From the NCBI GenBank assembly GCA_027858735.1, contig JAQICC010000025.1, forward strand, positions 1-41,059: a stretch of 41,059 nt of DNA, written 5' to 3'. Positions 33,250 through 35,880 of this stretch are shown piece after piece. Made by a program: the position numbers and the translations under genes. Each line of letters starts with the position of its first letter. The stretch's first letter is position 1. A model generated the notes under the pieces. The model was not told the DNA's origin. It made no database searches and worked only from the letters and a program-made list of their open reading frames with translations. This DNA is from Salinivirgaceae bacterium (GTDB lineage: Bacteria > Bacteroidota > Bacteroidia > Bacteroidales > SZUA-534).

Positions 33250-33636
33250 ATGAAATATTACATAGAGAAAGAACTCAATTCAACCTTTGATAAGGCCATT
33301 GAGAGAATAAAAAGTTCATTACCTGAGTACGGTTTTGGTGTTGTTACTGAATTTAATCTAGATGAAAAATTAAAAGATAAACTTGGTGTTGATTTCAGAA
33401 AGTATAAAGTAATTGGAGCTTGTAACCCGAAGTCTGCTTATGAAGCATTGCAACTTGAACCCATGATTGGCACTATGCTACCATGTAATATAATTGTACA
33501 AGAAATAGAGCCTACTAAAATCCAAGTAGCAGCTATTGATCCGGTAGCTTCAATGCAAGCTATTGAAAACCCCATGCTTACAGAGGCTGCTGAATCTATT
33601 AAACAAATGCTTAAAAAGCTTATAGACAGCTTGTAA
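33250..33636 (+). CDS. DUF302 domain protein
   Basis: The 128 residues carry the DUF302 pattern: a KAIERIKSSLPEYGFGVVTEFN start, KVIGACNPKSAYEAL, and GTMLPCNIIVQE with the conserved cysteine after LP. It is a small soluble alpha/beta protein of unknown function. It converges on the anti-sigma-barrel gene across a shared terminator. Confidence 0.9.
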   Translation: MKYYIEKELNSTFDKAIERIKSSLPEYGFGVVTEFNLDEKLKDKLGVDFRKYKVIGACNPKSAYEALQLEPMIGTMLPCNIIVQEIEPTKIQVAAIDPVASMQAIENPMLTEAAESIKQMLKKLIDSL

Positions 33637-33695: not shown

Positions 33696-35216
33696 TTAAA
33701 AATCGTATCGTAATCCAGTATAAACACCAAATGAATATGGGTATACCGATCCTGAATTATTTATTGAGCTTAAAGAATATCTGACAGTTGGTTGCATATT
33801 AAATTTCAACCTTGAGACTATTGGGTATTCTATTCCAAGGCCAAAAACTCCACTATAGTTCATGTTTTTTAAATCTTCTGCCTCTGCATCCAATTCATAC
33901 CTGCTACCATCATCTTGTACATATGTATTGTTAGCATAAAGTATATTGGCACTTAATCCGCCGCTAACATTAACCGATAGCTTTCTATCTACAATGGTAT
34001 AGTCAACAACAACCGGAATTTCATAAAACTCATAAGTTTGAACAAAATTAGTTTTTAATACAGGTTCATCAACCGCTCTATTTTCTTCATATACAAACGA
34101 TTGATCACCTAGTATTTCATCTACCATATCCTCTTGCTCTGAATATTTACCAATCAATTGATTTTGATTACCATTCACTGCAATATTTCCAACTGAAGTA
34201 TTTATTGAATACGTACTACTTTCTGTTTCATACGCCGGTTGATTATAGATGGCTACATTTTCAGACACTTGTCCTGTTTCAGCATAATAAATTCCCGTTT
34301 GCACTTTCCAACGTTTTGACATGCTATACTTAACATTAACACCTGCAGAATAACTCATTAAAGGTTTTTCGTTTGTGTAATTTTGTTGGTAATTGCTATT
34401 AATATCTGCAATATAAGCCAACTCTTGCGATGAATTTACAACATCACGATAACTCACTAAAGGTGCTGCTGAAACCCCAACTGACCATGTTGAATAATCT
34501 TTCTTTTCATGAGAATCCAAAATATAATCTACCACATTTACTAATTGACTTGAATCATATGCTAGTTGTTTTTTATTAGCAATATTGGGTAAATTAAACT
34601 TCTTCATTACCATAGGATTTAAAGAAACCAATTCACTTTCATTATTCAATTCATTTTCCGAATCTTCAACTTTATTTTCAACCAATTCTGTATTTAATTG
34701 TTCCGGTTCCGATTCATCGGTACTAGCAAATATAGGTGGTAATAAACTACCCGACGATTTCACCTTTTTAATATTTGAATTTTGTTTTGGTTCAGAACTT
34801 TTACTTGGGGTCGTTTCTATTGACTTATCATTACTACTTTCAGTTGGCAATATACTTTCTATAGAAGTATCTATTTTATTTTCATTTTCAATTAATGAAG
34901 GTTCTGTGCTAATTTCTTTAGCTTGTTTATTTGTAGGTTGATTATCATCATCAGTGCTATCAGCAATAGCTTCAATAGCCATTTTATTAGATGCCACCAA
35001 CTCTTGCGTCTGCATATTAGTGTACATATAGCCAGCACCAAATGCTAATAGTAATGCAATTGAAGCTGCAATGGAATACGCAATATTTTTATTTCTTCTG
35101 AATCTTCTCTGATTTAAATTCTGCTCAATATTATCCCACACAAAACTAGGCGGATTTTCAGAATAATCTTTCAACCCCTCCTTTAAAATCTTGTCTATAT
35201 CTTGTTGTATTGTCAT
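33696..35216 (-). CDS. Anti-sigma-like, membrane-anchored protein with C-terminal outer-membrane barrel domain
   Basis: The first 40 residues are cytoplasmic-looking and acidic (WDNIEQNL), followed by one membrane helix (about 44-64), a Ser/Glu/Asn-rich spacer (about 70-230), and a C-terminal PorT/OMP_b-brl-like domain (about 235-506) of aromatic-alternating strands ending in RYDF, a typical outer-membrane targeting end. There is no signal peptide cleavage motif. The gene sits five bases after the ECF sigma gene, so it is the likely cognate regulator. A single polypeptide with an inner-membrane anchor and a barrel domain is unusual; the barrel could be periplasmic or inserted in the outer membrane. 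Confidence 0.75.
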   Translation of the reverse strand: MTIQQDIDKILKEGLKDYSENPPSFVWDNIEQNLNQRRFRRNKNIAYSIAASIALLLAFGAGYMYTNMQTQELVASNKMAIEAIADSTDDDNQPTNKQAKEISTEPSLIENENKIDTSIESILPTESSNDKSIETTPSKSSEPKQNSNIKKVKSSGSLLPPIFASTDESEPEQLNTELVENKVEDSENELNNESELVSLNPMVMKKFNLPNIANKKQLAYDSSQLVNVVDYILDSHEKKDYSTWSVGVSAAPLVSYRDVVNSSQELAYIADINSNYQQNYTNEKPLMSYSAGVNVKYSMSKRWKVQTGIYYAETGQVSENVAIYNQPAYETESSTYSINTSVGNIAVNGNQNQLIGKYSEQEDMVDEILGDQSFVYEENRAVDEPVLKTNFVQTYEFYEIPVVVDYTIVDRKLSVNVSGGLSANILYANNTYVQDDGSRYELDAEAEDLKNMNYSGVFGLGIEYPIVSRLKFNMQPTVRYSLSSINNSGSVYPYSFGVYTGLRYDF

Positions 35217-35220
35217 AATA

Positions 35221-35787
35221 TTACTTAACTACCAATTTAAATTCTGATTCCTTCTCCTTATAAAGTTCCTCAACTTTATCTTGAAGAATAACCCTAGCCC
35301 TTGAAAGATTTGATTTGGATGTTCCAACTGAAATCTTTAGCATATCACCAATTTCTTGATGCGAATACCCTTCAATGGCATAAAGGTTAAAAACCGTTTT
35401 GTATTGAGGTGAAAGTTCCTGAACAAGGCCTAACAGCTCTTTACTTGAAATTTCACTCATAATATCATCGTACGCTAATTTATGGTCGTATTCTTGAATA
35501 TCTGAAACCGAATACAACATATTCTGCTTTCTGTATCGTTCAAGAGCACAGTTTACCATAATTCTACGTACCCAACCTTCAAAAGAACCTTTAAAAATAT
35601 ACTGGTCAATTTTTGTAAAAACTTTAATAAAACCGTCTTGCAAAATATCTTCAGCCTCAGTATAATCTTTCGAATACTGCAAGCATACACCAAACATTTT
35701 TCCCGAAAAATGTTCGTATAATTCTTTTTGCGCCTCAGGTCTGTTTTTTTTACAGTCCTTTATTATTTTATCTAGTTCCTTCAACAA
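35221..35787 (-). CDS. ECF RNA polymerase sigma factor
   Basis: The 188 residues contain sigma region 2 (AEDILQDGFIKVF, GSFEGWVRRIMVNC) and region 4 (LSPQYKTVFNLYAIEGYSHQEIGDML...GTSKSNLSRARVIL). It is a group-4 (ECF) sigma factor without region 3. It would redirect RNA polymerase to an unknown regulon in response to an envelope signal, kept inactive by the adjacent membrane protein. No clear autoregulatory promoter could be read upstream. Confidence 0.93.
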   Translation of the reverse strand: MLKELDKIIKDCKKNRPEAQKELYEHFSGKMFGVCLQYSKDYTEAEDILQDGFIKVFTKIDQYIFKGSFEGWVRRIMVNCALERYRKQNMLYSVSDIQEYDHKLAYDDIMSEISSKELLGLVQELSPQYKTVFNLYAIEGYSHQEIGDMLKISVGTSKSNLSRARVILQDKVEELYKEKESEFKLVVK

Positions 35788-35880
35788 AATCGGATTTTAT
35801 ATATCTGGGTTTAACTTTAATATCTCCGATACCGACAACAAGACGGCATCAATTTTTAAAAGGTTGCGTATTAAGTAATA

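Follow-up and report, generated by a model that had tools for sequence, protein, structure and literature searches.

A Dma-like pair of ECF sigma factor and putative anti-sigma factor in Salinivirgaceae, and the varied outer ends of related sigma-linked proteins

In the FecI-FecR-FecA system, an inner-membrane anti-sigma factor relays the action of an outer-membrane barrel to an ECF sigma factor. A route from the state of the outer membrane to transcription that runs through one polypeptide is rare in Gram-negative cells, and the layout of the Dma proteins seems to be such a route. Dma1 and Dma2 are described as an N-terminal anti-sigma part, one helix, a long disordered tether and a C-terminal beta-barrel, with an ECF sigma gene adjacent (PMC13088901). 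M0N98_03760 of Phocaeicola vulgatus is given a similar layout, and its disruption activates the protective regulon of its sigma factor, according to PMC9308784; the name ecfO-reo is used in PMC13114119. Class I anti-sigma domains lie near 6% of the ECF genes in Bacteroidetes versus 32% overall (PMC7406223), so that other kinds of anti-sigma factor are expected in this group.

Here we analyse a sigma/partner pair on a 41,059-nt contig of a Salinivirgaceae bacterium (JAQICC010000025.1; the whole stretch is called the window). The pair is Dma-like by layout, and the young 'dual membrane-spanning anti-sigma' family of Bacteroidota to which it is likened has already been published. The original prediction held that the partner could span the envelope and report the state of the outer membrane to the sigma factor; the layout supports this idea by analogy, as it is the one already put forward for the Dma and Reo proteins.

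The sigma gene and its partner protein

The sigma gene lies at 35221..35787 (-) and codes for 188 aa. Its product matches Sigma70_r2 (50.7 bits) and Sigma70_r4_2 (54.8 bits) of Pfam above the cut-offs, and in NCBIfam the superfamily model TIGR02937 (89.4 bits) is alone above its cut-off among the best 25 rows. The start codon as listed is a TTG at 35787, and the earliest in-frame ATG is codon 31. The nearest named relatives of the protein come from Marinilabiliales, Bacteroidetes and Salinivirgaceae records and one Rikenella microfusus; Salinivirgaceae is the commonest name among them, and its 20 genomes are referred to as the family. An orthologous sigma factor (E <= 1e-50) is present in 18 of these 20 genomes, and this conservation together with the Pfam matches rules out a chance ORF.

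After a gap of 4 nt, an ATG at 35216 opens the gene of the partner, a putative anti-sigma factor of the Dma type with 506 aa (33696..35216, -; ORF, Pfam and AlphaFold2). The sigma gene and its neighbour thus stand where the original prediction had placed them. Whole or shortened, the partner is found in the same 18 family genomes as the sigma factor. The genome of the window holds 28 sigma-region-2 matches, and a full-length hit of the partner profile comes after only one of them, the window sigma; six other hits of this profile are partial (E 6e-5 to 0.006). In the same genome, a 469-aa protein with a helix near residue 80 is encoded near an ECF sigma match (contig C282, L123:1303-2712, -); its C-terminus, by eye, resembles what we take to be a TonB C-terminal domain. 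Convergent with the partner gene is a gene for a DUF302 protein (PF03625, 78 bits; 33250-33636, +).

Among 80 named sigma relatives, the next gene is at least 400 aa long and complete within the contig in 62; these long genes were picked on length, and the presence of a barrel was confirmed individually for part of them at most. The remaining 18 comprise 11 short or truncated genes, two with a T9SS domain at the end, three that run off the contig and two others, one with a broken barrel frame and one (L100) of full length but mis-picked. At L057, the barrel of a Dma-type partner downstream of the sigma gene is split over two frames, either by a sequencing error or as a pseudogene.

The partner begins with a conserved module, residues 1-44 (35085..35216, -), delimited by alignment and profile and putatively cytosolic and sigma-binding. 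Its pattern is IDKILK..L.....PP..VW..I, with W27 invariant in 19 aligned sequences, and the module profile also matches the N-termini of other partner classes. Pfam gives no credible family for the module, known anti-sigma domains are absent at E <= 10, and a FecR domain is likewise absent from the Pfam matches of the partner at that limit. The sole hydrophobic segment of the protein, residues 45-63 (35028..35084, -), is preceded by RRFRRNK and falls within a modelled helix (24-66), so that a short cytoplasmic part followed by one membrane helix, as originally proposed, is recovered by hydropathy. This helix follows the conserved 44-residue module and is therefore unlikely to be a signal peptide rather than an anchor, a judgement made from position and charge only.

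The low-complexity, putatively periplasmic tether spans residues 64-242 (34491..35027, -). Measured between the last residue of the hydrophobic core and the barrel, it counts 179-180 residues, against the 170 first proposed, and the spacer predicted to be disordered has ~175. The AlphaFold2 model, built from a 19-sequence alignment, has a mean pLDDT of 64.1 over the whole chain; it contains helices at 4-16 and 24-66, a stretch with pLDDT <50 at 67-238, and eight long strands within 243-505, which are mostly above 90 with lower loops.

Residues 243-506 (33699..34490, -) end in Y-D-F and match OMP_b-brl_2 (PF13568, 35.0 bits; cut-off 27). A sequence search with the partner gives no solved structure at E <= 1. 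Compared by structure with VIA-align, residues 238-506 have a Legionella Dot/Icm porin as top match (Z 18.6), followed by OmpA (18.2), NspA (18.0), OprF (16.9) and OmpW (about 16.5-16.7); in Foldseek, the top rank goes to the outer-membrane protease Pla and the third to OmpA. The C-terminal domain is thus predicted to be an eight-stranded OmpA/NspA-like barrel with an aromatic F at its end, in line with the barrel-like domain originally proposed, and prediction and structure matches alike speak against a soluble beta sandwich.

Promoter-like site and putative targets

A site of ECF type, CGCAACC-N16-CGTC, was identified at 35842..35868 (-) by pattern search and shuffles, 54 nt ahead of the sigma TTG. 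Of 17 family loci, 13 have the pattern AAC-N14..19-CGT[CA] ahead of the sigma gene, and the window is one of these; all 13 matches read ACGCAACC-N16-CGTC, and the other four loci retain CGCAACC. Shuffled sequences give a mean of 1.9 and a maximum of 8, and none of 1000 rounds reaches 13. Outside the family the signal is weak, with the pattern in 12 of 63 further named loci against a shuffled mean of 5.4 and maximum of 11. A sigma-70-type promoter was not found ahead of the operon. At L031, a locus of the barrel-less genus described below, a symporter gene occupies 17-904, the sigma gene runs from 901 and the site lies within the end of the symporter gene, so that in this genus coding constraint may help to keep the site. 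Autoregulation of the sigma gene through the promoter-like site is probable on this evidence from sequence.

Within the genome of the window, CGCAACC-N16-CGTC occurs once, as does the reversed control pattern. A looser pattern matches 24 times in six genomes and its reversed control 13 times; the 24 matches comprise the six sigma promoters, seven sites within long frames and 11 intergenic ones. Three gene pairs recur between genomes among the intergenic matches: a lipoprotein (L332/L333, 64% identity), an exported protein of ~880 aa (L347/L353, 65% identity) and a PKD lipoprotein (L341/L346, by eye). The ~880-aa protein, which is exported and lacks an over-threshold Pfam family, is represented in the genome of the window (contig C81) by L356:1501-4128 and elsewhere by 17 orthologues.

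For this protein, the upstream site matches 8-10 of 10 bases in all 18 orthologues examined, with shuffle p values of 0.035-0.06 for three and 0.01 or less for the rest. The GCAACC-N16-C[AG]TC-like site lies 38-79 nt upstream of the gene, and 197 nt from the estimated start in L359. The first lipoprotein carries an upstream site in 7/7 orthologues (p 0.035 for L380 and 0.005 or less otherwise). Four of these 25 target orthologues are the pattern search's own finds, and the partial or paralogous L366, L373 and L374 were excluded. One family genome (G006), which has no orthologous sigma factor at E <= 1e-50, retains the site ahead of one putative target; other ECF sigma factors therefore probably read it, and the putative target genes may answer to several of them.

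Barrel loss, the tether block and a proposed mechanism

The barrel is absent from the partner in 12 of the 18 family genomes with an orthologous sigma factor. Full-length partners are present in six (the window, G002, G004, G005, G007 and G009), the partner of G001 has 198 aa, and 11 genomes of one genus have partner ORFs of 105-128 aa that match the N-terminal part only. The complete sequences of these 11 short proteins show a tail of 42-51 residues behind the module and the helix. In the tree of sigma factors, the 17 family rows (the window and 16 named loci) form a single starred clade, six with and 11 without barrel.

The short, barrel-less anti-sigma orthologues are encoded at L045-L053, L099 and L030-L037, in a genus that is largely ruminant-associated; ten named loci group with this genus, and seven of their ten titles name a stomach compartment of sheep, buffalo or yak. 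In the four short-form loci inspected by eye, the sigma order is kept and a symporter gene lies upstream. Relocation of the barrel to another gene was considered and rejected: whole-protein searches of the barrel-less genomes return N-terminal matches only at E <= 1e-3, and tblastn of six barrels against 11 shortened named loci gives a best E of 0.3, although a diverged barrel elsewhere in a genome could escape these searches.

An alignment of the tethers reveals a conserved block, KKVKSSGSLLPPIF, at residues 150-163 (34728..34769, -). In the six full-length tethers it reads KKxxSxGxLLPPxF, with an identity of 0.69 over the 14-column window versus an overall mean of 0.16, a value reached in none of 5000 column permutations. 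The 198-aa form retains the block as LLSPSF. In the short proteins, alignment places APx[FY]ADSAx[YF] on the tether block, and the C-terminus follows 3-12 residues later; by profile score, two of the 11 short tails lie above every one of the 2200 shuffles and another two rank among the top few, while for the other seven the match is not significant alone and the link runs through their likeness to the first four. A conserved block in other letters is present in two of four other lineages (0/2000 permutations each), weak in a third (72/2000) and absent in the fourth (1169/2000). Our reading of these alignments is that the tether would hold a short functional site that outlasted the barrel.

We consider it likely that the two proteins form a Dma-type sigma/anti-sigma pair, with a single chain running from the inner to the outer membrane. 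Module 1-44 would hold the ECF sigma factor at the inner membrane, the one helix would cross this membrane, the disordered tether of ~175 residues would cross the periplasm and the barrel would sit in the outer membrane. A disturbance of the outer membrane, whether it leaves the barrel unassembled or perturbs an assembled one, would change the tether's state. Most likely, the tether would then be open to proteolysis near the inner membrane, and the sigma factor would be released. The free sigma factor would then transcribe its own operon from the CGCAACC-N16-CGTC promoter, along with a small set of exported proteins. Since the contour length of a disordered chain is ~0.36 nm per residue, 175 residues amount to ~60 nm, far above the width of the periplasm, and the tether need not be taut.

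A different reading of the same layout takes the barrel as a client that reports BAM capacity, in which the C-terminal aromatic residue of an uninserted barrel would trigger a periplasmic protease; in E. coli, outer-membrane protein peptides trigger DegS. Both the C-terminal Y-D-F and the barrel fold suit such a role. In P. vulgatus, moreover, many genes induced by a toxin that induces a regulon of this kind are also induced by a BamA inhibitor (PMC9308784). The barrel-less orthologues, on the other hand, keep the pair although they have nothing to assemble, and we regard this reading as doubtful.

Cleavage after synthesis, by which the barrel would become a normal outer-membrane protein and the N-terminal part a separate anti-sigma factor with no resting chain across the envelope, appears improbable to us. 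The 12 family genomes that lack the barrel and keep the N-terminal part indicate that the first half can live alone, and a tether predicted to be disordered would be cut easily; however, 63 proteins with tethers of low identity, the window protein among them, all keep a tether length of 119-186 residues (median 151), which would be needless for separate products, and 38 of the 100 loci surveyed have a barrel partner. That the partner is no anti-sigma factor and lies beside the sigma gene through operon organisation only is very improbable: Pfam shows no known anti-sigma domain in it, but the two genes keep their order and stay close together in the family and in the majority of loci outside it, and characterised proteins of the same layout are anti-sigma factors (PMC13088901 and PMC9308784).

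Returning to the preferred reading, a sigma/anti-sigma pair with one envelope-spanning chain, we argue from the barrel-less orthologues that holding the sigma factor needs the module and helix only. This suggests inhibition without need of a barrel, with the tether block, and not the barrel alone, as the control point. The family provides natural experiments on the Dma signal, as it contains pairs with and without barrel, the 14-residue block and the promoter-like site.

Outer ends beyond the family and comparison with known systems

For a survey, we took the best-ranked sigma relatives of a class and a phylum search, 100 in all with one from each genome; the search profile (A4) had 26 rows, two of which come from loci with T9SS partners. 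A lower match was used for two genomes, and two genomes with the best match at a contig end were passed over. By local profiles, the next gene codes for a Dma-like barrel in 38 loci, for a T9SS C-terminal domain in 21 and for something else in 41, some of which may be wrong gene picks. Pfam scans of 20 of these 41 give a PorP/SprF barrel in four (PF11751, 61-83 bits versus 22.3) and an OMP_b-brl domain above the cut-off in two (L185 and L211). The four PorP-fused partners (L198, L199, L208 and L212), encoded in 3-kb loci, have a hydrophobic helix at about residue 140-200 and the PF11751 barrel at the C-terminus.

The T9SS-tagged partners of the survey are those of L151, L155, L156, L157, L168, L170, L172, L181, L183, L188, L196, L197, L202, L203, L214, L216, L220, L221, L223, L226 and L227. 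PF13585 is above its cut-off of 27 in 19 of the 21 (L220 reaches 24.5 and L227 26.7), and a PKD domain is above its cut-off in 14. Among the 80 named loci, a T9SS type B domain replaces the barrel in the partners of L110 (4540-5532) and L114 (4545-5585), which score 52.0 and 55.9 bits with PF13585 and 35.5 and 43.2 with TIGR04131 (cut-off 35); the scan with TIGR04131 covered these two alone among the T9SS-tagged partners. Most T9SS-tagged partners have a single helix, with a hydrophobic segment that starts at 37-86, past the module and away from the N-terminus where a Sec signal peptide would lie; L170 has none over the threshold. The C-terminal domain is well predicted in the model of the L151 partner. 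Foldseek gives it no match below E 0.001; in first and fourth place stand two 75-residue chains from T9SS translocon complexes (8glk_D, E 0.003, and 8gl8_D, E 0.016), presumably the bound substrate, and in second place an unrelated protease.

We also profiled the N-terminal module on the 62 named long partners only. This profile matches (E <= 1e-3) 15 of the 21 T9SS-tagged partners, 28 of the 38 barrel partners, 24 of the 37 remaining ones and none of the four PorP fusions, the best of which reaches 0.007; none of 100 shuffled N-terminal stretches matches. The profile and survey sets overlap by at least one protein, as L147 and L082 share the same sigma factor and the same partner length. The module seemingly occurs in tandem in some proteins, with four profile matches in L229 and two in several of L149, L230, L231, L233, L198, L199 and L208; by eye, there are four or five copies in the PorP fusions and two in L119 of the window's own genome. 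From such sequences, it seems as if one protein could hold several sigma factors.

On the best tree of 181 sigma factors, the four outer-end labels need 16 changes versus a shuffled mean of 51. The T9SS label needs eight, of which starred branches force two only. The tree was made with a quick method, 76 of its 177 inner branches are weak and 23 rows are unlabelled; 'barrel' was assigned to named loci by length and 'none' to survey rows by hand. By these comparisons, sigma-linked, predicted inner-membrane proteins bear three different putative outer-membrane connections, and for two of the three the profile finds the same module. As far as sequence tells, the outer end of the sigma partners is exchangeable, or lost.

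In 10 of 22 loci with a T9SS partner (20 of the 21 survey loci with L110 and L114), a second T9SS-tagged gene lies no further than 4 kb from the sigma gene, compared with 0/35 arbitrarily chosen 8-kb stretches of the same genomes (Fisher p 1.5e-5) and 0/78 other named loci; three of the ten neighbours look like a single inherited neighbour and are therefore not independent. PMC9143113 describes an association of type B domains with PorP-like barrels; a local profile found no PorP/SprF gene beside the T9SS-tagged partners in the 22 loci. In a search based on L114 for further T9SS partners, the seven loci inspected have the look of ordinary T9SS cargo and no adjacent sigma gene.

It is quite possible, though we propose it tentatively, that the Dma proteins belong as one branch to a larger, modular class of anti-sigma factors that span the envelope, in which an inner-membrane, sigma-holding module and a tether would be combined with an OmpA-like barrel, a PorP/SprF barrel or a T9SS signal, or would have lost the outer end and kept a short tether motif as input. 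The T9SS-tagged form would then be a tethered T9SS client, whose engagement or pulling would report secretion load. T9SS-tagged sigma partners are thus possible candidates for secretion-sensing anti-sigma factors and, if they work as drawn, they would be direct secretion sensors. Among the titles and abstract openings listed in text searches, none describes an anti-sigma factor that carries either a T9SS C-terminal domain or a PorP barrel, and sigma terms are absent from the text of PMC12611786. In Flavobacterium psychrophilum, T9SS genes and one ECF/anti-sigma pair share a promoter motif, as reported in PMC9723704.

Among the known systems, the PorA-PorXY-SigP pathway of Porphyromonas gingivalis also lets a protein with a T9SS C-terminal domain influence an ECF sigma factor; PMC7712824 proposes a two-component system as the route, with no anti-sigma fusion, whereas the T9SS-tagged partners of our survey are themselves sigma-linked. 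In FecI-FecR-FecA the transducer and FecR are separate proteins, whereas the window partner is one chain with no FecR match in Pfam. EcfO-Reo of B. fragilis and P. vulgatus (M0N98_03760-61) resembles the window pair in having an ECF sigma factor followed by a large anti-sigma factor whose predicted course through the periplasm ends in an outer-membrane barrel (PMC9308784); its reported targets include nigD genes, with lengthening of O-antigen chains, while the putative targets in the family are other exported proteins.

The window partner shares its four-part layout with Dma2; in Dma3 the sigma domain is fused (PMC13088901), and in the window the sigma factor is separate. The window pair further differs from Dma1-3 in its Bacteroidota family, in the symporter gene upstream, in the family-specific tether block and in its barrel-less orthologues. 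What is new beyond the published layout is the natural loss of the barrel, the tether block, the promoter-like site, the exchangeable outer ends and, above all, the T9SS-tagged form.
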